DNA of 21,836 nucleotides from a virus. Shown here one piece after another: positions 1 to 18,200 of the stretch (position 1 is the stretch's first letter; the number at the start of each line of letters is the position of its first letter). The notes beneath the pieces are model-generated. The model worked only from the letters and a program-made list of their open reading frames with translations. It ran no database searches and was not told the origin of the DNA. The DNA is taken from the IMG/VR virus record IMGVR_UViG_3300021090_000117, positions 1 through 21,836 of that record; one strand, given 5' to 3'. The translations under genes and the position numbers were made by a program.

Positions 1-40
1 GCTGAGCATCAAGCGATGAGTACGTCTACGGTTCAGGCTG

Positions 41-60
41 GTAGAATGGGTGTGCTAAAG
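41..60 (+). repeat. 20-bp conserved box, copy 1 (5' flank of first HNH-like gene)
   Basis: This 20-base stretch matches 2471-2490 at 17 of 20 positions (core gtagaatg then tgtgctaa). In the second HNH-like gene the ATG inside the box is the likely start codon. Here the equivalent ATG at 46 is in frame with the gene but is followed by about 75 extra bases before the better start at 121. The box may be a shared ancestral 5' end, an insertion border, or a promoter element (TAGAAT resembles a -10 box, but no good -35 is visible). Confidence 0.55.
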
Positions 61-65
61 AGAGA

Positions 66-94
66 GCGGACGCGCTGCGCTAACAGCCGTCCGC
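66..94 (+). promoter_or_regulatory. Stem-loop in leader of first HNH-like gene
   Basis: Bases 66-72 pair perfectly with 88-94 (7 bp). After a one-base bulge at 73, bases 74-77 pair with 84-87 (4 bp), leaving a 6-base loop. The hairpin sits 12 bases upstream of the Shine-Dalgarno sequence at 107-112. There is no T-run after it, so it is not a classical intrinsic terminator. It may control or insulate expression of the HNH-like gene, or be an RNA processing site. The second HNH-like gene lacks this segment. Confidence 0.45.
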
Positions 95-120
95 GTGACA
101 CCGAGGAAGGAGACTCCCCG

Positions 121-585
121 ATGCGCCTACAGTCTAGCAAGGCTTGCTCCATCGAAGGCTGCGAATCACGCGCCTACAGCCGCAGTTGGTGCATCAAGCA
201 TTACTCTCGCTGGTTGCGCCACGGCGACCCCTCCGTCGATCTGCCACGGGCCAGCTTTAAGGTTGGCAACAAGATAGGCCACCGCTTCCAATCTACCCAC
301 GGCATGTACGCCACACCGACCTATCGCTCTTGGCAAAACATGATCACGCGCTGCTCAAACTCGAATCATAAGCACTACGCGAACTACGGCGGGCGGGGGA
401 TCACGGTCTGCGCGGCCTGGCGGGCGAGTTTCGAAGCCTTCCTGTCCGACATGGGCGAGAGGCCCGAGGGCAAGACGTTAGATCGCCGTGATAACGACGG
501 CAACTACGAGCCTGCCAATTGCCGATGGGCGACGCGCATCGAGCAGAGGCGGAACCGGCGCCCCAGGCGCGGGCGCGAGGTGTAG
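121..585 (+). CDS. HNH-like free-standing endonuclease-family protein, copy 1
   Basis: The 154-residue product opens with a probable zinc finger (C9, C14, C24, H27). It then carries a block seen in many phage proteins usually annotated as HNH endonucleases: YGGRGITVC, a DMGERPEG segment, and D121-R-R-D-N-D-G-N-Y followed by N133-C-R-W. Such genes usually act as selfish homing elements or DNA-binding proteins. The position where classical HNH proteins have the first histidine (DHID) is R122 here, so cleavage activity is uncertain. Position 121 is chosen as start because AAGGAG lies 8 bases upstream at 107-112. An in-frame ATG at 46 would add 25 residues but has a poor ribosome-binding site. 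The gene ends 3 bases before the portal start. A close relative lies just after the portal at 2476-2964. Family membership is clear; nuclease activity is inference. Confidence 0.8.
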   Translation: MRLQSSKACSIEGCESRAYSRSWCIKHYSRWLRHGDPSVDLPRASFKVGNKIGHRFQSTHGMYATPTYRSWQNMITRCSNSNHKHYANYGGRGITVCAAWRASFEAFLSDMGERPEGKTLDRRDNDGNYEPANCRWATRIEQRRNRRPRRGREV

Positions 586-588
586 ACC

Positions 589-2463
589 GTGTATATTCCC
601 GATGCCCATTATGTAAACGCGCTCCTACTCCAGCTTCAGCGCGAGCTCGAAGGCGCGCACCGCAAGGTCATGGAGATCGAGGCGCTGCGGTACGGCGAGG
701 ACAAGATCACCCGGCCCAGCGTCCAGAAGCAGACCGGCCTCGAAGTGCGCGCCGGCCTCACCGCGGACCTGATCCGCAGCGTCGTCTCGGCACTCACGGC
801 TAACCAGCCGCGCACGAAGCTCCGGGCGCTGCGCTCGGGCGACGGCGCTGCCAAAAATACGAGCAAGCGCGAGGCGTTCTGGGATGCCTGGCTGAAGCAC
901 CAGCACCAGGTGTTCCGCCGGTTGGTCGACAGCACCGTCGGCAACGGCCTGGGCATCCTCAAAGGCGTCTATGCGCCCTGGCCGACCGAGGACCGCAAGA
1001 GGCTGGCCGGAGAGGCTGACAAGAAGTACCTCGCGCGCATGCGGCCGCTAAAACGCAAGTGGGGGCCGCCTTACGCCGCCGTCACGCCGCACCCGCTGAC
1101 GTTCTACCACCGCCTCGGCCAGGGCGACCGCATAGCCGAAGTGATCGAGCACGGCTGGCGTTCAAAGGTCGACGTCTATGCCAAGTACGCAATCGAGGAC
1201 GATGCCACCCTTCGGCGCAAACAACGCGGCCCGGAGCTTGACAGCAAGGTCGCCGAGATCCGGACGGCCACGCTGCTGCGCTCGGTCACCGGCCAGCCCG
1301 AAGAGATAATCCGGCCGCTACCCGCCGGCGCCGACAGCACCACGATGTGCCTCGTGACCGAATACTGGAATGCCGACTGCTACCAGGTGTACGTCAACCG
1401 GCGCCTCCTGTACGAGGAAGAGAAGCCCGGCGTCGGCTACTTCACCTGCGTAGGCGAGAGCACCAGCTCCCCGGACCCGGACAAGTACGGGCTGAGCATC
1501 GCCGAGAACATGCGGGCGAACGAGCCCGTGATCAACCGCATGCTGTCGCAGATGGCCGACGCCGCCGAGATGCTCGTGCACCGGCGCGCGACGATTGAGC
1601 TGCCCGACGGCACCGTCTTGCCGCAGGAGATCGGGGACGACAACAAGCCGAAGCCCGTCGAGTTCGACTTCTCAGACCCGAAGCGCATCCGTCCGCTGCC
1701 GGGAGGCGCGAAGGTCCACGACTTGAGCGCGGGCATCGAGTCGGTGGCCGGGCTGGTGCCGGCGCTTGAGATGATCGTGCGGTTTACCTCGCAGCACGGC
1801 GTCGCGCCGATCTTCAAGGGCATGCCGCCGGGCGCGAGCGGCTCCGGCTACCGCGACAACTCGCTGTACCTCATGGCAAAAGCGCAGTTCGAAGCGCTCG
1901 TCGACAGCATCCAGGAAGCCGTCGCCGACTACATCAGGTGGATGGAAGGCCAGATCGTCGAGCACGGCGAGCCAGTGTACTTCGAAGACCTCGAGCTCAA
2001 GCCCGGCGATATCGAAGAATGGGACGCCGTGATCACCGTCTCGCTTGACCCGGCGCTGCCGCAAAACCTCATAGCTGAGGGTTCCTTTTGGGCCGAAATG
2101 CAGGCGCGCGGCTTCGTCACGAAGCGCCAAGTCCGCGAGGACGGGCTCAAGATCGAGCAGCCGGACGATATCGAGGAGCAGATGCTCCTTGAGCAAGTCC
2201 AAGAACTACTGAAGCCCACGCTCGTACAGGACGTCCTTCGTCATTTCCAGATGGCTCCCGTCGCCGACGCGGTGCAACAGGGCGGGCAACCTACCATCCT
2301 CGGGCCTGACGGCAACCCGCTGGCCCCAAGCGGTGGGCCGGGAGGCGCTCAGCAGCTCCTCAGCGCAACCAATGGAGCGACAGGCGGTTTCCCTCAGGGC
2401 CAAGCCCGTGCCGGCGTGGCACGCCAACCACCCTTCCAGCCGGGAAGCTATCCGCCAGCGTAG
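589..2463 (+). CDS. Portal protein
   Basis: This 624-residue protein has the size and layout of a phage portal, the dodecameric ring at the capsid vertex through which DNA is packaged and ejected. Visible features are a helical N-terminal region with TADLIRSVVSALTANQP-type sequence (about residues 52-70), a central beta-rich clip/wing region, long helices around residues 395-450, and a stretch beginning SLDPALPQNLIAEGSFWAEM (about residues 485-505), typical of portal C-terminal parts. The last 70 residues are low in complexity and rich in Gly, Pro, Gln and Ala. The start is GTG at 589, with GAGGTG 7 bases upstream. Position before an ejection module, scaffold and capsid gene supports the call. 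The large terminase expected upstream would lie outside the window. Confidence 0.85.
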   Translation: MYIPDAHYVNALLLQLQRELEGAHRKVMEIEALRYGEDKITRPSVQKQTGLEVRAGLTADLIRSVVSALTANQPRTKLRALRSGDGAAKNTSKREAFWDAWLKHQHQVFRRLVDSTVGNGLGILKGVYAPWPTEDRKRLAGEADKKYLARMRPLKRKWGPPYAAVTPHPLTFYHRLGQGDRIAEVIEHGWRSKVDVYAKYAIEDDATLRRKQRGPELDSKVAEIRTATLLRSVTGQPEEIIRPLPAGADSTTMCLVTEYWNADCYQVYVNRRLLYEEEKPGVGYFTCVGESTSSPDPDKYGLSIAENMRANEPVINRMLSQMADAAEMLVHRRATIELPDGTVLPQEIGDDNKPKPVEFDFSDPKRIRPLPGGAKVHDLSAGIESVAGLVPALEMIVRFTSQHGVAPIFKGMPPGASGSGYRDNSLYLMAKAQFEALVDSIQEAVADYIRWMEGQIVEHGEPVYFEDLELKPGDIEEWDAVITVSLDPALPQNLIAEGSFWAEMQARGFVTKRQVREDGLKIEQPDDIEEQMLLEQVQELLKPTLVQDVLRHFQMAPVADAVQQGGQPTILGPDGNPLAPSGGPGGAQQLLSATNGATGGFPQGQARAGVARQPPFQPGSYPPA

Positions 2464-2470
2464 GTGGAGC

Positions 2471-2490
2471 GTAGAATGACTGTGCTAATG
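2471..2490 (+). repeat. 20-bp conserved box, copy 2 (start of second HNH-like gene)
   Basis: This stretch matches 41-60 at 17 of 20 bases and contains the ATG start of the second HNH-like gene at 2476. In this copy the coding homology with the zinc-finger segment follows within about 10 bases, whereas in copy 1 it is displaced by the stem-loop leader. Confidence 0.55.
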
Positions 2491-2964
2491 TGCTCCGTCG
2501 ATGAATGTGAGCGAGCCACTCATTGCAAGGGCTTCTGCAAGAAGCATTACACGCGCCTCCTGCGCCATGGCAGCCCCCTGATCGTCAAGAAAACAGGACT
2601 GCCGCTGGGTGCGGGGCATACTTCTAACCCCTTTCCTAAAGGCCACAGGTACAGCACCCGCCACGGCTACACGGGTACATCGACTCACAACATCTGGCTC
2701 AGCATGGTCGCGCGCTGCTCGAATCCCAGGTCGAAAGATTGGCCCAATTACGGCGGCCGGGGCATCACGGTCTGCAAGCGCTGGCTAACCTTTGAGAACT
2801 TCCTTGCCGACATGGGCGAGAGGCCCGAGGGCCTGAGCATCGACCGGATCGACAACGAGCGCGGCTACGAGGCGGGCAACTGCCGCTGGGCCTCGCGTTC
2901 AGAGCAAGGCCAGAACCGGCGCCCTTACCGGTGGATGCGCAACCGAGAATTGGCGGTGACGTAA
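2476..2964 (+). CDS. HNH-like free-standing endonuclease-family protein, copy 2
   Basis: The 162-residue product is a clear paralogue of the gene at 121-585. It has the same N-terminal zinc-finger pattern (C6, C11, C21, H24), the YGGRGITVC and DMGERPEG blocks, and D123-R-I-D-N with a downstream NCRWA. The two genes share 26 identical consecutive bases (446-471 and 2807-2832). ATG 2476 is preferred because GGAG lies 6 bases upstream; a GTG at 2464, directly after the portal stop, would add four residues. The reading frame fills the space between the portal stop and the next GTG at 2965, as expected for a tidy insertion between two genes. As in copy 1, Arg (R124) replaces the first HNH histidine. 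It is probably a homing-type endonuclease or a DNA-binding derivative; activity is not proven by sequence. Confidence 0.8.
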   Translation: MTVLMCSVDECERATHCKGFCKKHYTRLLRHGSPLIVKKTGLPLGAGHTSNPFPKGHRYSTRHGYTGTSTHNIWLSMVARCSNPRSKDWPNYGGRGITVCKRWLTFENFLADMGERPEGLSIDRIDNERGYEAGNCRWASRSEQGQNRRPYRWMRNRELAVT

Positions 2965-3294
2965 GTGCCTCTGGTGACCGGCCCATCTCTTGATCAAGTC
3001 GTCAAAGAAGCGCGCGAGTGGTACGCCGCGAAGCGGACCTGGCTCATCGAGCAGCTCAGCGAGAGCTATCCCTACGGGGCAGTGCCATTAACCCCTATGG
3101 ATCAGCTCGCCCGATACTCTGAAATGCAGCTAGACCCGGCCTCGTGGAGGGCGCTCGTGATGATGCTTGAGGACCGCTACCGCGGCCTGCCCGATGCGCG
3201 CCAGAAGGTCGAGCGCGACCTACAGGCGTACGTGCGGCGCATGGAAGCGCTGAAGGCGAAGGTCAGCTCGCCCGGAGGGGTGGAGAATGCCTAA
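2965..3294 (+). CDS. Small helical protein of unknown function
   Basis: The 109-residue product is not recognised. It begins with GTG immediately after the TAA of the second HNH-like gene and overlaps the transglycosylase gene by 8 bases. The sequence is mostly helical, with many charged residues (for example EAREWYAAKRTWLIEQL near the N terminus and a C-terminal segment with DLQAYVRRMEALKAKV). The ribosome-binding site is weak (a GGCGGTGA-like stretch), so translation may depend on coupling to the upstream gene; before the HNH-like gene arrived it presumably followed the portal directly. Position suggests a virion or assembly role, but nothing in the sequence proves it. Confidence 0.65.
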   Translation: MPLVTGPSLDQVVKEAREWYAAKRTWLIEQLSESYPYGAVPLTPMDQLARYSEMQLDPASWRALVMMLEDRYRGLPDARQKVERDLQAYVRRMEALKAKVSSPGGVENA

Positions 3295-4438
3295 CCCGAT
3301 TGAACTGATCGAATACGCGAAGCAGGTCGCGCGACAGGCAGGCATCGACGAGAAGCTGTTTATCGGCCTGATCGCCCACGAGAGCGGCTTCAAGGCGGAC
3401 CCGGGCGGCAACGGCGGCGGCATCGGCCAGTTCCGCAAAGAGACAGCCGAAGGCTATGGCGTCACTCAGGAGCAATTGAGGAAGGACCCAAAGCTTGGGC
3501 TTCGGGTCGCCGCCCGCCTGCTCCAGGACAACTACAAGGCCGTCGGCAACGACTGGACGAAGGCCGCTGCCGCCTACTTCGTGGGCTCCGGCAACATCCA
3601 GCAGGCCAGCCAGGGCGGCGGCAACTGGATCGCTGCCGCCGACAAGATCGCCGGGCAATACGGGCAGGGCAGCGTTACTCAGTACCTCAAGGATATCGGG
3701 CTCAGTGACACGCTGGCGAGCACGCGCGGCCAGCTCGGCGCGCGGCCCGCCGGTAGGACAGGCGCGACCGCTGGCGACTTGCCGCCTCCGAATATCGAGA
3801 GCTACCGCTTGCCTGATCCGATCACCGGCGAGCTGTCGGGTGACTATGACTACGGCGCCTACTATCAGGCGCTCACTGGCTTCAGGGAGCTCTCGAAGGG
3901 CAAGAGCGACGAAACACTTGCCGACCGTTTGGCGCTCATCGAAGCCGACCTGGGCTACTTTGACGCGGAACTTGAGGCCGGCCGCCTCAACGTGACAAAA
4001 GCCAGCCAGGAGTTCCAGCAGCGCCTGGACTCATACAAGGCCGCGAACGCGCCTTTCGAGTCTGCGATGGGCTATCTCGTACCGATGGGGGCGACTCATT
4101 TTCCGGGCACCGACAAGCCTCTCAGTGGGCCGCCTGTCGAATGGAACCCGCTGAAGATGGCTCTTGATATGCGCAACGGGCTTGGCACGCCTGACCTGAC
4201 CACGATCCCCACGCCGCAGGCCCCAAGCCGCAACCTCTTCGCGGAGGCGCTCGATATGGCCCGTGCCCGCGGCGCCACAGGTGCGGCGCAGCCGGACACG
4301 ACACAGCCGGCGCAGTTCCCACGCGACAATCCCCCGCCGGCGCCTAATACGAGCATCGCGCCGGGGATGGCTTCGACTGCTGGCGGCGACGCCGAAGCGA
4401 TCAGGCTCGCGCAGATGTTCGCGGGTGGAGGCTACTGA
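3287..4438 (+). CDS. Virion lytic transglycosylase (SLT domain) with long C-terminal extension
   Basis: Residues 1-110 form a soluble lytic transglycosylase-like domain. Catalytic Glu32 lies in AHESGF, the GGIGQF motif is at 44-49 followed by T53-A54, and the AAAYFVGSG motif is at about 94-102. Enzymes of this family cleave the MurNAc-GlcNAc bond of peptidoglycan. In tailed phages such domains are commonly carried on virion proteins that open a local hole in the cell wall during DNA entry. Residues 130-383 are not recognised and end in a Pro/Ala-rich tail finishing with GGGY. ATG 3287 follows a GGAGGGG-type ribosome-binding site inside the previous gene. The stop overlaps the next start by one base. 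Location between portal and capsid genes favours an ejection protein over an endolysin; no holin neighbour is seen. Confidence 0.8.
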   Translation: MPNPIELIEYAKQVARQAGIDEKLFIGLIAHESGFKADPGGNGGGIGQFRKETAEGYGVTQEQLRKDPKLGLRVAARLLQDNYKAVGNDWTKAAAAYFVGSGNIQQASQGGGNWIAAADKIAGQYGQGSVTQYLKDIGLSDTLASTRGQLGARPAGRTGATAGDLPPPNIESYRLPDPITGELSGDYDYGAYYQALTGFRELSKGKSDETLADRLALIEADLGYFDAELEAGRLNVTKASQEFQQRLDSYKAANAPFESAMGYLVPMGATHFPGTDKPLSGPPVEWNPLKMALDMRNGLGTPDLTTIPTPQAPSRNLFAEALDMARARGATGAAQPDTTQPAQFPRDNPPPAPNTSIAPGMASTAGGDAEAIRLAQMFAGGGY

Positions 4439-5499
4439 TGGCCGCGCAGGACAACTATTGGGACGACCCAGCCGGGCTCTGGCGCGACCGCGCGACCGGC
4501 AACTACATGAAGCCCACCGACAAGGGCGGCGACGGCATCTGGTACAGCCCGGACGGACGACAGAAGTTCGTTAATGGAGTCTGGGTGGACACGGCCGGCG
4601 CCGGGGCCCAGGGAGCTGCCACGGGCACGGGCACTGGCTACGGCCTGGCCCCGGACTACATGTGGACGGTCGACCAGCTCAACCGCGACTTCACCGCGCA
4701 GCAGAATCAGGCGCAGCAGAACTTTACGGCGCAGCAAACCGACCTGGCCCGCTCGCAGACGGCGCACCTGACCGAGGTCGACGCCAACCTGCAACGCGAG
4801 CTTCAGCGCGGCACTATCGACGCGAATCAGTACATGCAGGAACGCGAGCTGGCGCAACGAGAAAGCGAGTTCGCCCGTAACATCGCCCTGCAGACCCTCA
4901 CCGCCGACCGCGACAACGAGTTGCGACGGATCGGAGAAGCGCGCCAGGAGCGGCTGCTGCAGGCGCAGCTCGCCGCCAACCCGCAGGACCTTGTCGCCTA
5001 TGAGTTCTACAAACGCAACCTCGGCCAGCCGGAGGCGTGGGACCTGGCGCAGCAGTTCGCGGCCGGCGGCGAAGCCGGGGCTAACGCGCCCATGACCACG
5101 GTCGAGAACCCGAGCGTGACCAGGGCCAAGCCTCCGACGGAGACGCTGAGCGGCCAGCCCTACCCGGAGCAGCCGCCGGCCTACTCGGACGAAGCCCTGC
5201 AGGAGCTCGCGTCGAGCTTCTACGACAACACGCCGGGAAACACGCCGCTCTACGACCCCAAGCTGTCGGGCACGGGCGTGTTCGGCGCGCAGATTAAGAG
5301 CCCCGGCGCGATCTCGCGTTCTCAGGGCATGCGCCTGAGCGACAGCGAGATGGGTGTCCTGTCGAGCTTCCTGCGCGGGGGCATCGACATGGGCGGCGGG
5401 AAGCGTGTGAGCATCAACCCGGACGAGTATTTCCAGCAAGTGGAGAAAAGTTGGATCCCAACGCTGAGCGGCGTTGGGACGCAGACGCAGTATCGCTAG
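4438..5499 (+). CDS. Coiled-coil putative internal virion protein
   Basis: The 353-residue product is not assignable to a named family. The N terminus has two short Trp-rich, WW-like segments (around YWDDPAGLWRD and GIWYSPDGRQKFVNGVW, residues 7-50). A Gly/Ala/Thr-rich linker follows. Residues about 75-190 are a long Gln/Glu/Arg-rich helix with repeated FTAQQ motifs, likely a coiled coil. The C-terminal third is less regular. The start overlaps the transglycosylase stop by one base (TGATG) and is preceded by GGTGGAGG. Translational coupling to the transglycosylase and position ahead of the giant protein suggest a packaged or ejected structural protein; this is inference. Confidence 0.7.
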   Translation: MAAQDNYWDDPAGLWRDRATGNYMKPTDKGGDGIWYSPDGRQKFVNGVWVDTAGAGAQGAATGTGTGYGLAPDYMWTVDQLNRDFTAQQNQAQQNFTAQQTDLARSQTAHLTEVDANLQRELQRGTIDANQYMQERELAQRESEFARNIALQTLTADRDNELRRIGEARQERLLQAQLAANPQDLVAYEFYKRNLGQPEAWDLAQQFAAGGEAGANAPMTTVENPSVTRAKPPTETLSGQPYPEQPPAYSDEALQELASSFYDNTPGNTPLYDPKLSGTGVFGAQIKSPGAISRSQGMRLSDSEMGVLSSFLRGGIDMGGGKRVSINPDEYFQQVEKSWIPTLSGVGTQTQYR

Positions 5500-5507
5500 G
5501 AGGCGAC

Positions 5508-5765
5508 ATGTCACAGAACCCCGCAATCGGCCGAATCGTCCACTACCGTCCCCTACCGGGGACCGAGCCCGTCATGATCGGCGAGCGACCCGCGATCATC
5601 GTCCGGACCTGGGGCAAGACGCCCGAGGACAAGGTGCAACTTCAGGTGTTCGTCGACGGAAGCAACGACGGCTTTCGCGAAGGCCTGATCTGGCGCACGT
5701 CCGTGGTGCAAGGCCCCGGGGAGGGTCAGTTTCACTTCCACGAGGACTGCCAGGAAGGCAAGTAG
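5508..5765 (+). CDS. Small phage protein, probable beta-barrel (SH3-like) fold
   Basis: The 85-residue product starts at ATG 5508, preceded by AGGAGG with 5-base spacing; an in-frame ATG at 5451 lies inside the upstream gene and is less likely. The sequence has alternating beta-strand character (GRIVHYRPL near the start, then RPAIIVRTW, VQLQVFVDG and the C-terminal GQFHFHEDC). It resembles a family of small phage proteins of unknown function that often sit among structural genes, with a conserved pattern of an N-terminal GxxVHY strand and a C-terminal W/F-H-F/W strand. Function cannot be inferred beyond a likely minor virion or accessory role. Confidence 0.7.
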   Translation: MSQNPAIGRIVHYRPLPGTEPVMIGERPAIIVRTWGKTPEDKVQLQVFVDGSNDGFREGLIWRTSVVQGPGEGQFHFHEDCQEGK

Positions 5766-5802
5766 CTCCGCGCCCTCTACGCCAACTCAAAGGAGTGACC
5801 CG

Positions 5803-6045
5803 ATGCCCTCGCCAGGAATGCACGGCGGCAGCCCCGACAACACCAGCATGCGCCTCGCGCGGCAGTTCCTCGGGCACCGCCCGATGCAGTCCGGGGAGGC
5901 GCAGACGATGCCGCAGGGCGTCACGGTCGAGAACATGCACGACTTCGGGCGCACTCCCGCCGGCATGAACATGATCGACGCCATGATGCGGCAGGTGGAC
6001 CCGAAGAAACGCCGGCCTTCTTCCGCAGGACCGCCACGGCGCTAA
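5803..6045 (+). CDS. Small Met-rich protein of unknown function
   Basis: The 80-residue product is not recognised. It has ten methionines including the start, a Ser/Pro-rich and basic C terminus, and no clear domain. An AAAGGAG ribosome-binding site lies 7 bases before ATG 5803. The stop overlaps the start of the giant downstream gene by one base (TAATG), so the two are probably translationally coupled. The coding call rests on the strong ribosome-binding site, tight fit between neighbours and codon composition matching the region. Confidence 0.6.
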   Translation: MPSPGMHGGSPDNTSMRLARQFLGHRPMQSGEAQTMPQGVTVENMHDFGRTPAGMNMIDAMMRQVDPKKRRPSSAGPPRR

Positions 6046-9000
6046 TGAGCAACTGGTACACCTACGAGCCAGCGGTCAGCTACCGGCGGCGCCAGGCGCG
6101 CCAGTGGACGGCGCAAGCGCGCAAGCACGCCTTCCAGACGCTTGCCCGCGACCAGCTCGCCGCAAGCGGGCAGGACCCCGACCTGCTCCGGACGAGTCCG
6201 ACCATGCTCGACCGGCCGGGGATCACGGGGCGCGACGTGGACGCGATCATGCGCCCGCGGCCCGAAGAGGAGGGCGGCGGCCCGCTCGGCGTCCTGGGCC
6301 GTGCCCTTGACGACGCCACGAGCACAGTGTTCGGCGGCAAGGTGCGGCAGCCCTGGGACGTCCTGAGGCCGATCAAGCGCATCATGGACGCGGAGAACCG
6401 CTACATCGCGAAGCCCGTCGCCAGTGGCCTCTACGAAGGTGTCACCGGCAGCGATTACGAGGACGCGCCGGGGCTCGTGAAGTTCGGCCTCGAGGCGCTC
6501 GCCTCGCCGAGCACGTACATCGGGCCTGGGACCGTGACGAAGCTGGTGAAGGGCGCCGGCGCCGGCAAGGCGGCGATCAAGCTCAGCGGCCTGGCCCAGG
6601 AGACGGATAGCGCGCTCCTCAGCGGCGCTTCACGCGTCGCCTCGAAGCTGACCGGCACGCCCGCGGCTATCGGCGGCGGCGCGTCAGGCTCTCGCCTCAC
6701 CCAGGTGCCGGACGCCGCGCTGCGCAAGCTCGTCGGCGGGCAGCTCCCGGCTTTCCCGATGCTCACCGCGCAGGACAAGGCGCTGAACGCCCTCAAGCGA
6801 ACGGTTGGCATCGGCGTCGAGGAAGAGGCGACCGCCACGACGATCATGCGGCACCGCGGCGACCTGAGGCTCACGGCCGAAGGACTCGCCAACCGGCTCG
6901 GCGCGGTCGCCGGCCGCAGGACTCGCCAGGCGTTCAAGGTCGACGAGAAGGGCCGGATCGCGTCGATACCCGGCGCGCCCACGATCCAGGACCTTGCCGC
7001 CAAGCTGCCGGAGTTCGACCAGTACCTCGACGACGGACAACGCAAGGTGCTCGGCGAGCTGCGCGACGAGATGGACTTCTATCACGGCGCCCTCACCGAG
7101 CAGGGCATCGAGATCGGCTCGCGCGCCGACGTCGTCGAGGGCGGCTTCTACCTACCGCGCGGCAACGCGCTCGAGGAAGGCGCCGACGCACCGCTCAAGG
7201 TCTACGCCGGCGGCGGCCGCGCGGGCACGCGCAAGGGCTTCGAGAAGAGCGCCGTGTTCGAGTCCATGACCCAGGGCATCGAAGCGGGCTTCGAGTACGC
7301 GCCCTTCGACGACGCCATCAAGAGCTATGCGCGCGACGCCGCGAACCGCTCGATCGACGCCTACTCCTCCAATGTGTTCAAGAACGCGGCGGACGAGGCG
7401 GGAGAATTGCTCGGCGAGAGTCCGGCGGCGCGGCTCGAGCGCATCGCGCCCGGCATGAGGGATCGCGTCGAGGACCTGCGCACCAAGATCAGCGGGCGCC
7501 TCAAGACCCTGGTCCGGCAGGAGACGCGCGGAGTGTCCGAAAACTACTCGGCGGCGCGTATGAAGCGCCTGCTGGACGACACCGAGACGCGCATCGCCAA
7601 GGCCGACGCGAAGGCGAACGAGTTGGGAGGAGCCGTAGATATCCTCGGGCCGGAGCGGACTCGTCTCTCGCAGCGCATCGCACGACTCGAAGGCGCAGCG
7701 AGCGAAGCACAAGCCGTCAGGGCCCGGGCAGAGCGCCGACTGCGCGGGGCCGAGAACCGAGCCGCGTCCGCTGAGGGGCGAGCCAACCTTCCGCGCCCTG
7801 GCTCTGGGGCCATGAAGCGCAATGAGGGCTTCATGCAGGCGCGTCAATCGGAGGCCGACCTGGCCGCCGCTGAGGCGAACCGGGCTACTGAGGCCGAGGC
7901 CGCCGCGCAGCAGGCCGTTGAGGAGGCGAAGGCAGAGCTTGGAGGCTTGCCGGGAGCCACCCCAGGCGTCGAGAAGGCCCTCACGCGCGCCGAGGCGGAG
8001 CTGCTGACGCTGGACCGCGAGGCTAACCGCATCGCCGGCGTGGCCCAGAGCGCGGCCGAACGCGGCATGAAGACCGAAGAGCGCTACCTGCGGTCGCTCG
8101 AGGGCGTCGAGGGCCTGCGCGAGGAGCTGTTCGGCATCCGCGGCGAGTGGCAGCGCGCCCTCGACCGCTCCCGTCAGACGCCACGAAACCAGGGCCAGAT
8201 CGGCATCGCGCAGCTTCAGGGCACGACGTTCCCCGACGCCGTCGCGAACGCGGCCAACGCCTATCTGCGCAGCGAGCAGAAGGGCAGTAGCGCCCTGGGC
8301 GCCCTGAACAACATCATGCGAGGCCTCCGCGCCACCGGCGACGTGAGCTTCCTCGGCATTCAGGGACTCCTCGGCCTCGCGCACGAGCCCGGCAGCTACG
8401 GGCGCGCGTGGAAGGCCGCGATGCAGGGCATCGGCGACCCCGACGCGCTGGCGAAGTTCATCGACGACTTCGACGCGAAGGCCCTGGCCGCGAGCCTGCC
8501 GGGCAGCAAGGAATGGATCAAGGCGGGGCTACGGCTCGGCGGCGCCGACACCGAGTTCGCGCTCAGAGCTAAGGGCCTGCTTCGCTCCGGCGACAAGATC
8601 GAGAAGCTACCGATCATCCGGCAGTCCAACCGCGCGTTTGGCTACTTCGGCGACGCGTTGCGTCTCGACGCCGCCGGCGCGATGCGGCTCGCCAACCCAA
8701 ACGCGAGCCTCGGCGAGCTCGCGCAGGCGGCAAACCTCATGACCGGCTGGACGAAGGGACGTTTCCTCGGCGACGCCGGCGAGTGGGTGCAGTTCGCGCC
8801 GCGGTTCTTCCAGTCGCAGCTTGAGCTCGTCGCCCGGGCCCTGACCGACAAGAGCGCCACGGGCGAGCAGGCGCGGCGCATGCTCGTGAAGCTCATCGGC
8901 ATAGGTGGCTCGCTGACCGTGGCCGCAAACGAGGCCATGGGCGGATCCACGGACTTCAACCCGGCGAGTCCCAACTTCATGCGCGTGCGCGTCGCGGGCC

Positions 9001-9794
9001 AGGACGTGAGCCTCTTCGGGCCGTGGGACTCGCTCGTCAAGGCGATCGTGAACGCCGGCAAGGGCGACTTCGAGTACCTGGCGCGGACGAAGGCGTCGCC
9101 GCTGGTCGCGACCACCTGGGACGCGATCACGGGCAGGACTTTCACCGGCGACCCCGTGCTGAGTCCGCTGAAGCCGGGCGAGGCCGACCCTGAGAAGGTA
9201 GTCAACTTCCTCAAGAGCTTTCTGCCGTTCACCGCGCAGGACACGATCCGCGAGGGCATCGGCGCCGGCACCGCGATCGGCCTGACCGGCGTGAAGTCGG
9301 CGCCGCTGTCGAAGGCCGACCTGGTCGACGAGGTCGCGCGAGACGCCTTCGGCGAGTCGTGGGAGGACTTGAGCGCGCAAGAGGTGCTCGCCCTCGCAGA
9401 GCGCTTCCCAGAGCGCATCGACGCAAAGACGGCGCGCGCGGCCGCCAGCGTGAAGAAGAGCCTCGCGCCCTACTACGCGATCGAGGACGACGTCTGGGAC
9501 CGGATTAACGACCGATCGGAGTTCGCGCAGTACAAGACGCTCGACGACTTCGTCGAAGCCAAGGCCGAGTCGCTGCGCCAGGCCGGCGTGCCGGAGCGAG
9601 AGATCTCGAGCCGCCTTGAGGCGCTGCCCGTGGTCGGGACGCTCAACAGCGCCGTGCGTAAGCTCCGGCAGCGCTACCGGCTGGCGCACCCCGAGGTCGA
9701 CGATATTCTCGTGTCCTGGTACAACGCGACGCCCATCAGGCAGCAGATGGGGGCCGGGCGCAGGACAGCGGCCGCGCGACCAGCAGAAGGGTAA
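6045..9794 (+). CDS. Giant putative internal virion / ejection protein (1249 residues)
   Basis: This is the second largest gene in the window. The N-terminal part (about 1-200) contains amphipathic and hydrophobic stretches. Residues about 500-705 are a long Ala/Glu/Arg-rich coiled coil. Residues about 900-1050, with WVQFAPRFFQSQLELVARAL and a following hydrophobic helix, resemble a region I recognise from very large phage proteins, often called polyvalent or internal structural proteins. It lacks visible catalytic motifs. Size, coiled coil and position next to a virion transglycosylase suggest a protein packaged in the head and ejected with DNA. The start overlaps the preceding gene by one base and has no strong ribosome-binding site. 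The C terminus may be frameshifted: a downstream +1 frame continues plausibly to 9873. Confidence 0.7.
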   Translation: MSNWYTYEPAVSYRRRQARQWTAQARKHAFQTLARDQLAASGQDPDLLRTSPTMLDRPGITGRDVDAIMRPRPEEEGGGPLGVLGRALDDATSTVFGGKVRQPWDVLRPIKRIMDAENRYIAKPVASGLYEGVTGSDYEDAPGLVKFGLEALASPSTYIGPGTVTKLVKGAGAGKAAIKLSGLAQETDSALLSGASRVASKLTGTPAAIGGGASGSRLTQVPDAALRKLVGGQLPAFPMLTAQDKALNALKRTVGIGVEEEATATTIMRHRGDLRLTAEGLANRLGAVAGRRTRQAFKVDEKGRIASIPGAPTIQDLAAKLPEFDQYLDDGQRKVLGELRDEMDFYHGALTEQGIEIGSRADVVEGGFYLPRGNALEEGADAPLKVYAGGGRAGTRKGFEKSAVFESMTQGIEAGFEYAPFDDAIKSYARDAANRSIDAYSSNVFKNAADEAGELLGESPAARLERIAPGMRDRVEDLRTKISGRLKTLVRQETRGVSENYSAARMKRLLDDTETRIAKADAKANELGGAVDILGPERTRLSQRIARLEGAASEAQAVRARAERRLRGAENRAASAEGRANLPRPGSGAMKRNEGFMQARQSEADLAAAEANRATEAEAAAQQAVEEAKAELGGLPGATPGVEKALTRAEAELLTLDREANRIAGVAQSAAERGMKTEERYLRSLEGVEGLREELFGIRGEWQRALDRSRQTPRNQGQIGIAQLQGTTFPDAVANAANAYLRSEQKGSSALGALNNIMRGLRATGDVSFLGIQGLLGLAHEPGSYGRAWKAAMQGIGDPDALAKFIDDFDAKALAASLPGSKEWIKAGLRLGGADTEFALRAKGLLRSGDKIEKLPIIRQSNRAFGYFGDALRLDAAGAMRLANPNASLGELAQAANLMTGWTKGRFLGDAGEWVQFAPRFFQSQLELVARALTDKSATGEQARRMLVKLIGIGGSLTVAANEAMGGSTDFNPASPNFMRVRVAGQDVSLFGPWDSLVKAIVNAGKGDFEYLARTKASPLVATTWDAITGRTFTGDPVLSPLKPGEADPEKVVNFLKSFLPFTAQDTIREGIGAGTAIGLTGVKSAPLSKADLVDEVARDAFGESWEDLSAQEVLALAERFPERIDAKTARAAASVKKSLAPYYAIEDDVWDRINDRSEFAQYKTLDDFVEAKAESLRQAGVPEREISSRLEALPVVGTLNSAVRKLRQRYRLAHPEVDDILVSWYNATPIRQQMGAGRRTAAARPAEG

Positions 9795-10831: not shown

Positions 10832-11752
10832 TTGTCTGATATCACGATGCTCGAGTTCGCGGACTACGCCGAAGTCGACCGAAAGACCGGCGCAGTCGTT
10901 AAGCAGATCGTCGAAGAGTCTCCGATCATGGAGTACGTGCCCGTCCACCTGATTCAGGGCGCGGGGTACAAGTATCCGCGGGAGGAGAGTCTCGGCGGCA
11001 TCGACTGGCGCGCCGTGGGTGGAAGCTACGTCGCCAGCGCCGGCATGATCCGGTGGGACATGGAGACGTTGGCCGAGGCCGGCGGCGAGGTGTTCGTCGA
11101 CGACCAGGAGATCGAGAGCTCCAACCTCATCGCGATCAAGCCCCAAAAGTTCATGATGAAGGCCCGCTCGATGGGGCTGTTCATCAGCCAGAACTTCTTT
11201 GAGGGCGACAAGAGCGTCGACCCGGACGGCCTTGACGGGATGCGGCGGCGCCTGATGGGCTCACAGCTCATCAACGCCGGCACGGGCGGCGCCACGCTCG
11301 GCCTGACGATGATCCGCAACCTGATCGATTCGGTAAGGGGCTCGCCGGACGCCCTGTTCATGAACAAGACGATGCGCAACAAGATCACCGCCCTCGTCGA
11401 CGCGCAGACGGGCACCGCGCGCATCGTGTACGACCGCGACAACTTCGGCAGCGTGCAGCGCTCGTTCGACGGGATCCCGATCCGCGTCATCGAGCGCCAG
11501 GACGACGCCTCGACCTTCCTCGAGTTCAACGAGGACGACGGGTCGGGCAACCCCGACACGTGCTCGATCTACGCCGTGAAGTTCGGCATGGAGGACGTGC
11601 ACCTGATCGCCCACGGCGGCGTCCCCTCGGTCAAGGACTTCGGCGAGATCGAGGACCGCCCCGGCCACCTGGGCCGCATCCGCTGGATGTGGGGCATCGC
11701 CGTCGAGCACCCGCGGTCGGCCGCGCGGCTGAACCACATCAACAACGCCTGA
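10832..11752 (+). CDS. Major capsid protein (HK97 fold)
   Basis: The 306-residue product matches a family of phage major capsid proteins. The N-terminal arm contains EESPIMEYVP and YKYPREESLGG (residues about 28-55). It is followed by an extended strand region, the segment KARSMGLFISQNFFEGD (about 110-126), a helix region LDGMRRRLMGSQLINAG, and a C-terminal domain with ALFMNKTMRNKI and a closing RIRWMWGIAVEHPRSAARL. It forms the icosahedral shell. The likely start is TTG 10832, with GGAGG 8 bases upstream; ATG 10847 would remove five residues and has poor spacing. It follows the scaffold by 15 bases. No N-terminal delta domain is apparent, consistent with a separate scaffold. Confidence 0.88.
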   Translation: MSDITMLEFADYAEVDRKTGAVVKQIVEESPIMEYVPVHLIQGAGYKYPREESLGGIDWRAVGGSYVASAGMIRWDMETLAEAGGEVFVDDQEIESSNLIAIKPQKFMMKARSMGLFISQNFFEGDKSVDPDGLDGMRRRLMGSQLINAGTGGATLGLTMIRNLIDSVRGSPDALFMNKTMRNKITALVDAQTGTARIVYDRDNFGSVQRSFDGIPIRVIERQDDASTFLEFNEDDGSGNPDTCSIYAVKFGMEDVHLIAHGGVPSVKDFGEIEDRPGHLGRIRWMWGIAVEHPRSAARLNHINNA

Positions 11753-13079: not shown

Positions 13080-13709
13080 ATGACTAGCGACGAGCTGAAG
13101 CAAGCGCTGAGGGTCGCGGACACGTCGAACAACGAGGGCTACCGCCTAGGCGCCAAGATAGAGGCGATCGCGGCCTTCCTGCTCGGCATGGTCGGCATCG
13201 GCGAGGATGCGGCCATCGAGCCACCGGAGGGCGAGCCTGAGCCCATCAGCGACGAGGGCGCCCGCGATTACGTGCGCGGCATCGTCGACGAAGTGCTCGA
13301 CGCCCGGGCCTGGCGTCCGACCGCCGACATGCCGCCCTTAGAACAGCGCTTGGAGCGCATCGAGGCCAGCATCGTGCAGCTCGTCGAATGCATCGAGCAC
13401 TTGGAGGCGCAGCACGAGGTAGCCGACGGGCATACCAACGACGCCACGCCGGATATGCCGCCTCTGGCCCAGGACACCGGCCCTGAGGCCCCCACGAGCG
13501 ACGTAGACCCCACCGACGACGTGAGCGCGCCTCTGGCCCAGGGAGAGGATGCGACCGCGCCGGCCCAGGACGCCATCGACTACGAGGCCCTGACGAAGGG
13601 CGACCTGATCTCGCTTGCGGGCGAACGCGGACTGCACTTCCCGAGCGGATCCACAAAGGCGACGATCATCGAGGCGCTTAGCGCCGACGACGCGAAGCGA
13701 GGGGCGTAG
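13080..13709 (+). CDS. Acidic protein with C-terminal SAP-like motif
   Basis: The 209-residue product has a helical N-terminal half (residues 1-115, including a probable coiled coil around LEQRLERIEASIVQLVECI). A disordered Pro/Asp/Thr-rich linker follows, with repeats of a (D)MPPLxQ or APLAQ motif at about residues 83, 125 and 150. The C-terminal 40 residues, beginning YEALTKGDLISLAGERGL, match a SAP/HeH-like helix-extended-helix motif, a small fold often used to bind DNA or protein in phage structural modules. The start is two bases after the previous stop, with only a weak ribosome-binding site. A head-completion or DNA-contacting virion role is possible. Function is not established. Confidence 0.65.
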   Translation: MTSDELKQALRVADTSNNEGYRLGAKIEAIAAFLLGMVGIGEDAAIEPPEGEPEPISDEGARDYVRGIVDEVLDARAWRPTADMPPLEQRLERIEASIVQLVECIEHLEAQHEVADGHTNDATPDMPPLAQDTGPEAPTSDVDPTDDVSAPLAQGEDATAPAQDAIDYEALTKGDLISLAGERGLHFPSGSTKATIIEALSADDAKRGA

Positions 13710-14134
13710 TGCCTCAGGTCGCCGAGGGCCAGGAGATCACGCTTGAGCTGCTCACGGACCTGTCGACGTCGATCCGCAACGTGGCCAGGGACTTCCTTCC
13801 GGGCCGGGACTTCACCGTCTCGGTAAGGCGTGAGCCCGCGGGCATCGTCTTGCGGGTGCCCGGCGCGACCTCGAAGCCAATGGAGGCGGCGCTATACGAG
13901 CTGGCACAGGGCTTGAAAACCGTACTGGACAGGATCATACCGAGCCTGCCGCTGCGCTACATGGTCATCGGCGGGTCGGAGGCGGCGGGAATCCAGATCA
14001 CGGTGCAGCCGGGGGCAACGCCGGTCTACGGCCACGTCATCAAGGCGAAGGTCGAGAGGCTGATCGCCTCTGAGGCATTGCGGGGAAAGCCAAGGCTCGT
14101 GGATGCGCTGCTAAAAGGAGATGCGAGACTATGA
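13709..14134 (+). CDS. Protein of unknown function, head-tail region
   Basis: The 141-residue product is not recognised. The GTG start at 13709 overlaps the previous stop by one base, so translation is probably coupled. The sequence has helical segments (TLELLTDLSTSIRNVARDF and ALYELAQGLKTVLDRII) flanking beta strands (FTVSVRREPAGIVLRV and YMVIGGSEAAGIQITV), and a basic helical C terminus. The gene ends in a 4-base overlap with the next start. Position suggests a structural or connector role; no catalytic signature is visible. Confidence 0.6.
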   Translation: MPQVAEGQEITLELLTDLSTSIRNVARDFLPGRDFTVSVRREPAGIVLRVPGATSKPMEAALYELAQGLKTVLDRIIPSLPLRYMVIGGSEAAGIQITVQPGATPVYGHVIKAKVERLIASEALRGKPRLVDALLKGDARL

Positions 14135-14559
14135 GCGCCCTATCAGACTTCGCAGAAGTCGAGATCCGGAAGCACATCTTCCGAACCGGCTCCTTTACCA
14201 AGCCCACTGTCCTGCGTGTAGCCCTGGCAACAGCGGCGACGACCGACGCCCAGACCGGCGCCACGATCACGGAGGTCACCAACGCCAACGCCTACGCGCG
14301 AACCGGCCCTGACCCGCTGGACGCCAACTGGTCGGGGGCGTCCTCGAGTGATGGGCTCACCGACAACGTAGCGGCCATCACCTTCCCGACCTGTACGACA
14401 GCGACGTGGGGCACGGTCAGCCATATCGCCATTGTCGACTCGGCGACCTGGGGCGCTGGCAACTCGCTCCTGCACGGAGCGCTGACAGCGAGCAAGACCG
14501 TAGGCGTCGGCGACGTGTTCCAGTTCAACGCCGGCGCGCTGGACGTGACCTTTGCCTAG
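14131..14559 (+). CDS. Phage structural protein (tail fiber-like small beta protein)
   Basis: The 142-residue product belongs to a family I recognise in many tailed phages: an N-terminal helix (SDFAEVEIRKHIF), a TKPTVLRVAL strand, a YARTGPDP turn, then ITFPTCTTATWGTVSHIAIVD and LLHGALTASKTVGVGDVFQF, ending in a short LDVTF strand. Members are usually annotated as tail fiber or minor structural proteins; their exact place in the virion is mostly unknown. A strong AAAAGGAG ribosome-binding site lies 10 bases upstream. The protein is full length for the family. Confidence 0.75.
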   Translation: MSALSDFAEVEIRKHIFRTGSFTKPTVLRVALATAATTDAQTGATITEVTNANAYARTGPDPLDANWSGASSSDGLTDNVAAITFPTCTTATWGTVSHIAIVDSATWGAGNSLLHGALTASKTVGVGDVFQFNAGALDVTFA

Positions 14560-14941: not shown

Positions 14942-15264
14942 TGCGCTGGCGTCTCTACTACGCTGACGGCTCGACCTTCAGCGACCGAGACGGCGAGCCC
15001 GAAGAGGCCCCTGTAGCGGGCGTCATGTGTGTCGCCCAGGAAGCGGCTAACCCGCAAGGCTTCCAGCTCCTTTACGGCACGTCCAACCTCGATGGCTACT
15101 GGTTTTACCGCGATGAGAGTTGGTTTTGCTGTGACCAGCTTGGCTTCTGGGACAACCTTTTGATGTTCCCGAATCCCAAGATCATGGTCTTCGGGCGCTC
15201 GATGCCGCGAGACGCTGACTTCTGGGCGATCATCGAGAGGGCGGGCCGTGAAGGTGTGGGCTAG
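14941..15264 (+). CDS. Small conserved phage protein of unknown function
   Basis: The 107-residue product starts at ATG 14941, sharing one base with the previous stop (TAATG). The pattern WRLYYADGSTFSDRDGEPE near the N terminus, then APVAGVMCVAQ, GYWFYRDESWFC and GFWDNLLMF, resembles a widespread small phage protein family without known function, generally encoded near tail fibers. Its 3' end overlaps the fiber gene by 17 bases, consistent with translational coupling. Two adjacent cysteines (SWFCCDQ) are unusual, but no metal-binding pattern is evident. Confidence 0.7.
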   Translation: MRWRLYYADGSTFSDRDGEPEEAPVAGVMCVAQEAANPQGFQLLYGTSNLDGYWFYRDESWFCCDQLGFWDNLLMFPNPKIMVFGRSMPRDADFWAIIERAGREGVG

Positions 15265-18200
15265 CCCTAATCAGGATCGAGAGTGGATTTCGCGTGGCAT
15301 TGAGCTTTACGCGAAGGCCACCTTCACGCCGGCGTTCGATGCTTGGCGGTTCTACAACGACGGCGGCGAGGCCACGTCCGCGCCCTGGGCGGCAGTCTCT
15401 ACGAACATCAACGTCAAGTGCGGCGCGGGCGACCGCAAGGTACACCTGCGCGTCCGCATCCAGGAGACTGCCGGCGCCGCCGGCGCCTCGACCGACGACT
15501 ATCAGCTTCAGGTATCCAAGAACGCCGGGGCCTACGCCAACGTCGCCGCGGCGTCCTCGAACATAAAGGCCGACACCGGCTCCTCTCTCACGGACGGCTC
15601 CGCGACCACGAACCGCGCCACTAACGGCCTGACAGACGGCTCAGGAGCGTTCGTAGCGGGCGTCCAAGAAGAAGGCGACGGCCAGGTCGCGAATCATGCG
15701 CTGACAGCCTCGAACTTCACCGAGCACGTCTGGGCCTTGACCCTGGTTGCCGCCGACCTCGCCAACGGCGACACGCTGGACTTCCGCATCACGCTGAACG
15801 GCGGTGCGCCTGGCATGACGAACTCGGTCACGCCGCGCATCACGGTGAGCAAGGGCACGGCGGCAACTCTAGAGTTCCAGAGTGGTTTCTACACGGGCAA
15901 TGGTGGAGCTTCGAAAGCGATCAGCGGTCTCGGTTTTGCCCCACGCTATATGTACATCAAGGAAGACTCCGCCGACGACCTTTATGTGCGTGTCGATACG
16001 ATGGATGCTGACAGTGCCCGTCACCTGAGCGGCTCTATTAACACAGGCGTGATTCTCTCCTTGGATTCGGATGGGTTCACAGTAGGACTTACCCTAAACA
16101 CCAACAATGTCATATATCACTGGGCGGCGTTTGGTGGTGAGATTGACGAGATTGACACCTTCGTTTATACGGGCAACGCTGTCGATGGTTTCTTCCACGA
16201 TGTAGGGTTTACTCCCGACTGGGTGCATGTCTGGGGCACATCCGGCTCTAGTATTTGGAAGACCAGCGACCTTGCCGGAGACGCTGCTCTTCTGCCGGAC
16301 TCAGCAGCTTTGACAGACCGCTTACAGTCTTTGGAAGCTGGCGGCTTCACAGTTGGGGTAAATGGAGACACCAACGGCAGTGGCCCGACCTACTACGGAG
16401 TCGCCCTCAAAGACCGCGCCAACGTCCTCAAGACACACACTTACGACGGCACAGGTGGCGACGACAGGACTCTAACGGGCGCAGGCTTCCAACCCAACTT
16501 CGCCTTCGTCAAGGGCAACAACAACTTTAGCGCGCACTTCCGGTTCAAGGATCAAGTAGGTGACCTAAGTTATCCCTGGACTGACACGGCCTTCAACAAC
16601 CGCATTCAGGCATTCACGTCTGACGGGATGCAGCTCGGCACGGACGCGGCGGTCAACGAGAACACGGTCGCCTTCTATGTGCTGTGGGCGAAAGCGCCTG
16701 CCGGCACCACGCACCTCGCGGAGGCATCCCTCGCCGCTTCCGGGGCTATAGCCGCGGCTGCCGTGGCGCAGTATGCGGCTGCGGCCGCTCTGGCCGTGTC
16801 AGGGGCCGTAGCGCCTCTAGGACGCCTCACGCTCAGTGGGGTCGTGGCTCTCGAGGGTAGCGGGCTTCTTGCCGGCGACGCGGCGCTCGTGCGCGCAGGC
16901 GAGGCCGCCCTCGCCGTATCAGCCGCGCTGAGCCCAGACGCGCGCATGACCTACGCCGCCGCCCTGGCCCTGGCCGCCGCCGGGGTGCTCTCTCCCGACG
17001 CGGTAGCGCAGTACGCCGCAGCCGCGGGACTCAGCGCACAGGCCCTCGTGGATCCAAGTGGCCGCCTGACTCTGGGCGGGGCCGCTGTGCTGGACGGCTC
17101 CGGTTCTCTGGCGGCCGCTGCGAGCATTGCGCGGCTGGCGGAGGCCCTTCTCGCGGCCAGCGCAACCCTTTCGCCGGACGGCCGCATGACCTATGCAGGC
17201 GCGAGCGCGCTCAACGCCGCCGGCGTGCTATCGCCGGAGGCCAGAATGCAGTACGCCGCAGCAGCTCTGCTAGATGCTCTGGCGACGGTAGGGGCGGCAG
17301 GACGCCTCACGCTCGGGGGAGAAAGCCAGCTCGCAGGTTCCGGAAACCTTGCGGCCCAGGCCGTGATCGCATTGCTCGCGGGGGCGGCGCTGACAGGCTC
17401 CGGGGCACTGTCCGGCGCCCCGAAGCTGACGCTGGCGGGAGTCTCGCAGCTCGCGGCGTCCGGTGCCCTGGATATAGCCGCCAGCGTGGCGTACGCGGTC
17501 GCCAGCGCCCTGGCCGCGACCGCTGGCCTCACGCCAGCGGGCGGGCTCATCCTAGGCGGCGCTGCCGCCCTTGACGGCTCGGGGCTGCTCTCGGCCACAC
17601 CAACTCTAATCCTGGCCGGCGCTTCCCTCCTCGAGGCCCTCGCGAGCCTGACGGCGGAGGGGATCATCGTCGGCGGTGGTCTCGTGCTGGCTGAGGCAGT
17701 GCTTGCCGCCGCCGCAGCCTTGAATGCGGCCGGGGCGCTGACGCTGGGCGGGCAGGCTGCCTTCTCAGCTGCGGCCATGCTCGCGGCTGAGGCGACCGCC
17801 TTCCGCCTGGCGGAGGCCCTGCTCGCTGGCTCAGCCGCGGTCGCCGCCGCCGCCCGCATGACTCTCTCGGCAACCGCCGGTGTATTGGAGTTTCCTACTA
17901 CACCCGTCCTTGACAATTTCAATGGCGCAGACTTGAACCCTATCAACAACACCGGGATTTGGGGCGACCATCTTCCTGGCGACAACAACATACGCCGCAT
18001 CGTAAACCAGTGTGGTTCAAGCTCGGGCTTCGGCTCCGGTCTTACGAACGCTTCTTATGACCGTCCCGTCGAGGTTTACCTGACGATCTCCGACCTGGCC
18101 GACTCTCAAATAAACCTGTATTGGCTGACCGATTCGGATGCCCTGACAGGCTACTTCTTGAATGTTGTTGGAGGCTTTCTACAGCTCTACAAGCTAGTGA

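Follow-up and report, generated by a model that had tools for sequence, protein, structure and literature searches.

The viral record IMGVR_UViG_3300021090_000117 (IMG/VR), analysed here over its whole 21,836 nucleotides (nt) and called the window below, carries two small HNH-like nuclease genes, HNH1 and HNH2, in the gaps directly before and after the gene of a 624-amino-acid (aa) protein that is presumed to be the portal. HNH1 and HNH2 are likely two separately acquired, free-standing homing-type nuclease genes and, as such, a small example of the pattern described as islands of homing endonuclease genes (HEG-islands; Barth et al. 2023, PMC10448857). The HNH-gene-HNH bracket in the window is real and represents an instance of a known phenomenon, not a new one. 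It is a very small case of nuclease-bracketed genes, and it points to an abundant nuclease family that lacks the usual catalytic histidine; the published work on close members is computational, with no activity test in the parts of PMC11855218 consulted. The bracket comprises the following elements:

41-58, plus strand: 18-mer 5' of HNH1, with 16 of 18 bases as in the HNH2 start region (pattern picked after it had been sighted)
121-585, plus strand: HNH1, a free-standing HNH-like nuclease gene (154 aa) whose product has a Cys/His finger at the N-terminus (open reading frame (ORF) call, PHROG matches, structure model)
145-201, plus strand: N-terminal finger of HNH1 (C9, C14, C24, H27; finger pattern, low model confidence; putative zinc binding)
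298-561, plus strand: nuclease core of HNH1, D-R...Y...N-C-R-W (family alignment)
446-471, plus strand: 26-base run, identical to 2807-2832
589-2463, plus strand: 624-aa gene, presumed portal (position and size only)
2464-2964, plus strand: HNH2, a 166-aa HNH-like nuclease gene (162 aa from ATG 2476) of the same family as HNH1 (PHROG matches)
2471-2488, plus strand: partner of 41-58, spanning the ATG of HNH2
2491-2547, plus strand: N-terminal finger of HNH2 (C10, C15, C25, H28; finger pattern)
2656-2922, plus strand: nuclease core of HNH2 (family alignment)
2807-2832, plus strand: 26-base run, identical to 446-471

Both nuclease genes are complete ORFs that occupy the gaps on either side of another complete ORF, i.e., genes of their own, as is the case for free-standing homing endonuclease genes. 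The HNH1 stop (585) is followed after three bases by the GTG (589) of the 624-aa gene. The stop of the latter (2463) is followed without a gap by GTG 2464, which opens HNH2 (alternative start ATG 2476, behind GGTGGAG), and the next ORF opens directly behind the HNH2 stop (2964) at GTG 2965. The HNH1 start was taken at 121, behind GAGGAAGGAG, and is uncertain, as the frame is open upstream to ATG 46 and ATG 16. The gene 5' of HNH1 falls outside the window. An Rfam scan of positions 1-4500 revealed no intron and one sub-threshold small RNA match. The original prediction, made from the sequence of the window, had described two HNH-like genes that exactly flank the portal gene and share 26 identical bases as well as a finger plus NCRWA architecture. 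The positions of both ORFs, with gaps of 3 and 0 bases, the 26-base run and the common architecture were all recovered, whereas the portal identity of the middle gene was not confirmed by any family match.

Judged by sequence, HNH1 and HNH2 are members of the large, very common phage nuclease family PHROG 374/3377/8790. HNH1 matched phrog_3377 (E 1.1e-42), phrog_374 (E 3.7e-42) and phrog_8790 (E 1.8e-39), and HNH2 matched phrog_8790 (E 1.1e-38), phrog_374 (E 4.3e-38) and phrog_3377 (E 1.1e-37). Matches were found in 1059 phage records for HNH2 and in 993 for HNH1. No Pfam model, HNH included, matched either protein at E <= 0.1, nor did any NCBIfam model at E <= 1. The two proteins share 51% identity over HNH2 residues 8-157, and both contain an N-terminal C-x4-C-x9-C-x2-H stretch and the NCRWA motif. 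At the position of this finger, the family consensus is a GxRFGRLxV stretch; only seven of 177 family members, HNH1 and HNH2 among them, have the simple finger pattern within their first 90 residues. The core D/E-R...Y...N-C-R-W is present in both copies, with R, Y and N conserved in all 177 aligned members and D or E in 175. The position of the presumed catalytic His, which we assigned by comparison with the published I-HmuI motif (D74, H75, N96; PMC12724721, parts consulted), is occupied by Arg in 177 of 177 members, followed by an invariant Tyr 7 residues on and an invariant Asn 11 residues on. The last signature position holds Asn instead of His in 167 of 177. HNH1 and HNH2 thus differ from canonical His-Asn-His proteins in having no first-position His and no Pfam HNH match, and the label "HNH-like" given to them originally is apt for a family without the signature histidine.

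Several comparisons suggest that the two copies arrived separately. Among the 71 codons for the same residue (without Met and Trp), 43 are identical between HNH1 and HNH2, a number close to the 41.3 that codon usage in five further genes of the window predicts; hence, synonymous sites are saturated. In the core, the two share 59% identity, whereas the best matches elsewhere reach 71% and 63%. When 176 members are ordered by core identity, the partner comes 55th for one copy and 22nd for the other. Across the sampled loci, none of 42 co-located copies, the two from the window included, has a co-located copy as its nearest relative (four of the 42 come from one contig, L036/L148; L numbers are our locus labels). 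Paralogy by a recent local duplication does not fit these sequence comparisons; an old duplication is compatible with them.

The 26-base run is not peculiar to this pair. When family genes from different loci were paired at random, runs of at least 26 bases occurred in 16 of 3000 pairs and, among genes with more than 60% GC, in 136 of 2990 pairs, both sets including near-identical genes. Compared with 184 other copies each, HNH1 reached at least 26 identical bases with one (L131, 28) and HNH2 with two (L042, 27; L028, 26). We therefore set the run aside as evidence for duplication: it is uncommon, yet unrelated contigs equal it.

The mobility of the family could be followed in other phages. 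Loci L060 and L090 are 93.7% identical over 2460 bp, terminase included. In L060, a small gene is followed by an HNH gene and then by a T7-type portal gene (PF12236, E 1e-193), the HNH gene fitting exactly between the stop of the former and the start of the latter, whereas at the corresponding site of L090 the stop is followed by the portal start in two bases, with no HNH gene. L090 has an intact HNH gene behind its terminase gene (5566-6051), of which L060 keeps only a 3' relic (2454-2551). These differences indicate that genes of the family are gained and lost at sites like those in the window.

A second case comes from isolate phages. PhiM1_19 (AFQ22504.1; Pectobacterium phage PhiM1, L202), with 68% identity to HNH1 over 88 core residues, sits before the DNA polymerase gene of PhiM1 and is missing from Peat1 (L208) and Nobby (L209). 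Of the best 30 of 434 matched records, several of them GenBank/RefSeq doubles, 26 have a match that is split in two and lack 470 bases relative to PhiM1; the remaining four are PhiM1 itself (two) and PP90 (two), which has another HNH gene there. Upstream of the insert, PhiM1 and Peat1 are 97.7% identical (475 nt). Along the polymerase gene, identity per 300 nt from the insert amounts to 55, 78, 95, 100, 99, 100, 99 and 100%, i.e., about 600-900 bp are diverged. As Peat1 and Nobby agree over the first 600 nt of the gene (95 and 93%), PhiM1 is the changed one. Nobby carries an HNH gene behind the polymerase, and its identity to Peat1 drops to 68, 65, 59 and 55% towards that end. Compared with Peat1, the polymerase genes of PhiM1 and Nobby thus show opposite gradients, each going from 92-100% to about 55% towards the HNH-bearing end. 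This is the pattern expected of homing with co-conversion of the neighbouring gene end, for which cutting would be the cause. The steep fall of identity in the gene end beside the nuclease in PhiM1, Peat1 and Nobby also provides a simple signature for testing homing-driven exchange in other phages. Homing-type insertion beside conserved genes, as originally proposed, thus agrees with both cases at the level of the family, in which exact gene-edge insertion (L060/L090) and replacement of the neighbouring gene end (PhiM1/Peat1/Nobby) were found.

For the window, we propose that each nuclease gene was probably acquired on its own, one in each of the two gaps beside the presumed portal gene. During mixed infection by related phages, the nuclease would cut or nick the nuclease-less copy of the neighbouring gene, and repair from the carrier would transfer the nuclease gene and, along with it, that end of the conserved gene which it adjoins. 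Such co-conversion has its visible counterpart in the isolate phages and is inferred for the window. The bracket would then reflect that the edges of conserved genes repeatedly catch such genes, not a recent duplication of one element.

Several observations weigh against separate acquisition by homing. The alternative that one nuclease gene was duplicated locally across the portal gene is favoured by the full-length BLASTP comparison, in which HNH1 and HNH2 are mutual best matches in the sampled set (154 bits; next 147 and 140), and by their common finger, which is uncommon in the family and fits an old duplication. The same holds for positions 41-58 and 2471-2488, which are alike in 16 of 18 bases and are the sole two such places in the window. 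Among 2912 random segment pairs, 3 attained this level (none among 294 in a smaller first run), and 215 of 217 fetched loci lack the 18-base pattern, the remaining two (L001, L002) being the window itself. Trees built on the 95-column core, the check for local duplication that had been proposed, resolved little, and the approximately unbiased (AU) test did not reject the two as sisters (p = 0.51). Given the saturated synonymous sites, the partner ranks and the absence of nearest neighbours among co-located copies, we consider local duplication unlikely. Other points on this side concern homing itself: with an invariant Arg in place of His, nuclease catalysis of the family is putative; the Nobby HNH belongs, judged by eye, to another subfamily, so its gradient adjoins a different nuclease type; and no relative of the window phage was found in the collections searched, so that movement of either gene into its gap is presumed. 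The 18-mer at 41-58, located 62 bases 5' of the HNH1 start and containing ATG 46 in the HNH1 frame, may represent an old HNH1 start or the relic of an earlier nuclease gene.

The replaced His also raises the alternative that the pair is domesticated or inactive and acts as DNA-binding proteins without cutting; the Asn at the last signature position points the same way. The invariance of Arg, Tyr and Asn in the aligned set and the mobile behaviour of the relatives in L060/L090 and PhiM1/Peat1/Nobby speak against this, as does the best structural match of HNH1. The HNH1 model had a mean predicted local distance difference test (pLDDT) score of 78, with 81 of 154 residues at 90 or more and block means of 88-98 over residues 61-150. 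Residues 119-144 of the model form a beta-beta-alpha element, with strands at 119-122 and 134-137 and the helix at 139-144. By VIA-align, PacI (3LDY) ranked first (Z 5.6, root-mean-square deviation 3.9, 80 residues, 21% identity; next row Z 2.9). The Foldseek match to PacI was weak (E 1.3), and sequence and profile searches of the PDB with the nuclease found no relative, PacI included. R.PacI is an active HNH enzyme whose general base is considered to be a tyrosine (PMC4081073, parts consulted); in contrast to HNH1, it is a restriction enzyme. The fold of the family is possibly PacI-like, the structural match being suggestive and no proof. An inactive pair appears very unlikely to us.

The identity of the middle gene matters for what the bracket encloses. 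The 624-aa protein had no match in Pfam (E <= 0.1), NCBIfam (E <= 1) or PHROGs (E <= 10), nothing at E <= 10 among phages by tblastn and only chance-level matches in the PDB. Its single-sequence fold (pLDDT 37.3) was useless for identification. Profile comparison was uninformative, as the same method fails to connect two known portal families with each other. In a local single-sequence hhalign comparison, the RpAliso portal gave E 0.007 (0.063 to 0.42 for the other eight targets); this candidate was dropped when E rose to 0.62 with a four-sequence profile. Portal identity is thus a guess from position and size, which the tools neither confirmed nor excluded, and because it is unproven, so is an essential role of the gene.

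Brackets of this kind recur elsewhere. The 157 nuclease loci that we compared are the best 80 per query out of at least 598 and 160 confirmed matches, so frequencies are not population values. More than one family match was present in 24 of 157 loci, and at least two copies of at least 100 aa in 22 of 157 (L036 and L148 are one contig). In L030, two HNH genes enclose a P22-like portal gene (PF16510, E 5.4e-73) with gaps of 44 and 39 bases, the second HNH being a divergent family member. The order in L035 is terminase-like gene, HNH, DUF4055 gene (E 4.5e-12), small ORF, HNH, head morphogenesis, small ORF, HNH, scaffold (phrog_206). Here, the terminase-like gene, which matched no family, and the small ORFs were named by eye, and the frame of the middle gene was read by hand. 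We take DUF4055 to be portal-like. The head module of L035 (1-7417) thus has three family HNH genes, one immediately 5' of each of three head genes (DUF4055, head morphogenesis, scaffold). In L090, the terminase lies between two HNH genes, and in PP90 the DNA polymerase lies between two HNH genes of other subfamilies (judged by eye). Two family HNH genes also stand close together in L118 (5782-6999), a locus that in addition encodes a weak relative (38.9%) of the window head protein 14131-14559.

These brackets, around portal and terminase genes and, in PP90, around DNA polymerase, favour the alternative that both nucleases act together and carry the portal gene as cargo in mixed infection. 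The earlier idea of a portal cassette spreading as a unit corresponds, in our analysis, to the published HEG-island hypothesis, according to which nuclease genes that flank essential genes of phages mobilise these as cargo, and the arrangement in the window fits it (PMC10448857, parts consulted). HEG-islands resemble the window in having nuclease genes on either side of a gene, and differ from it in comprising larger regions and other nuclease classes, T5orf172, IPA-HNH and HNH-3 among them. In PhiM1 and Nobby only the nuclease-side gene end differs, not the whole gene, and the collections searched held no relative of the phage that could display conserved cargo in a diverged genome. We regard joint action on a cargo gene as rather unlikely. 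A further, speculative variant starts from the edges of portal genes as a preferred target of the family. In several unrelated lineages (the orphan candidate here, the P22-like L030, possibly the DUF4055 locus L035), two members with different cut sites would settle on both sides, each co-converting one end and together replacing the whole portal gene by successive homing, a minimal one-gene HEG-island. The chance that this holds seems low to us.

The position of HNH1 before the presumed portal gene recalls HrdP, whose gene is found between those of terminase and portal in each of the 89 Skunavirus genomes studied, and which the authors linked to packaging (PMC12724721, parts consulted). HNH1 could accordingly work with the terminase as a packaging nuclease, in the manner of HK97 gp74 or lactococcal HrdP. 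HrdP and the GVE2-type packaging HNH share with HNH1 the place next to a portal gene (the presumed portal here), and differ from the window genes in belonging to another HNH class. Arguing against such a role are the missing Pfam match (no model, HNH included, at E 0.1) and the absence of members from close relatives in two cases (L060/L090 and PhiM1/Peat1). Family members adjoin many kinds of genes (terminase, portal, DNA polymerase, capsid, protease, helicase), with one to five members each among the first 25 neighbour families per list. The tallies rest on 100 of 154 upstream and 102 of 166 downstream ORFs, hand-picked among those on the locus plus strand, and cover the first 25 of 84 and 114 families; the ORFs follow longest-ORF rules and can err. 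HNH2 lies on the other side of the 624-aa gene. Because of the position of HNH2 and the varied neighbours, we rate a packaging function as highly improbable.

Separately acquired homing-type genes, the reading that we prefer, have several published parallels. In Mycobacterium phage Pacc40, an out-of-frame HNH-like gene was described inside the gp60 methylase gene, and free-standing ones were described before related methylases (Tiff81 gp75, Sashimi gp74); the authors superposed a model of the Pacc40 protein on PacI, and rated the HNH label as less certain for Pacc40/Tiff81-type genes than for the ShiLan element (PMC11855218, parts consulted). In the Pacc40 record, we found 60% identity to HNH1 over residues 56-138 in a hidden frame with the same core motifs, which places it in the same family. 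HNH2 has a 47.5% match in Tiff81, to a gene with the number 70 in that record, which may be gp75 of the paper. The genes of Pacc40, Tiff81 and Sashimi differ from those of the window in being single copies in or before a DNA methylase gene, not a portal gene, and the N-terminus of the Pacc40 protein is of the GxRFGxLxV type instead of the Cys/His finger of the window copies. The HNH of PhiM1 resembles HNH1 in its 68% core identity, its place at the edge of a conserved gene, its absence from siblings and the co-conversion-like gradient; in contrast to the window genes, it is a single copy in the replication module and lacks the Cys/His finger. I-HmuI and I-PfoP3I are, like the family, phage HNH-type homing genes at conserved gene sites (PMC3428280, parts consulted). 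Unlike the window genes, they are intron-borne, and I-HmuI has the catalytic His H75 (PMC12724721). I-PfoP3I was rejected as a relative, since BLASTP matched it with neither HNH1 nor HNH2, even at E <= 10. A portal gene enclosed by two HNH genes did not appear in the titles or abstract openings of the literature surfaced by our searches, most of it seen only to that extent, and the word "portal" does not occur in the main text of PMC10448857 as consulted.

Relatives of the phage were sought with the presumed portal in phages (tblastn), viral contigs and genome contigs, as well as with the capsid protein alone, the 1249-aa protein and two other window genes (phages). Contig scans used exact 8-residue patterns of single proteins, by which relatives at moderate identity may be missed. 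The other genes used or matched include:

3287-4438: lysozyme-domain protein (SLT, PF01464, E 3.3e-13)
6045-9794: 1249-aa protein, without Pfam or PHROG match
10832-11752: capsid protein (phrog_212, E 7.1e-49)

The 624-aa and 1249-aa proteins matched no relative in the collections searched. A three-sequence capsid profile retrieved 38 loci; when window genes were compared with these and three annotated loci by tblastn, the capsid gene alone matched in 41 of 41. The lysozyme-domain stretch matched in one phage record (27% of the query, 36.8% identity). Among the 157 nuclease loci, weak single-gene matches were obtained in L118 for 14131-14559 (38.9%, E 3.7e-8) and in L043 for 15248-19051 (28.9%, E 4.2e-8). 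The lysozyme-stretch, L118 and L043 matches were not counted as relatives of the phage. The phage appears to be an orphan lineage, and because the collections searched held no relative, the junctions of HNH1 and HNH2 are not datable.

Two further observations concern other nuclease-related genes. In Brevundimonas phage Bajun (L221, 5739-6278), whose capsid protein resembles that of the window, an annotated HNH nuclease gene is located two genes before the major capsid gene. The window itself encodes, at 13080-13709, a 209-aa protein whose C-terminal residues 147-205 match phrog_3281 (endonuclease VII; E 5.4e-06).

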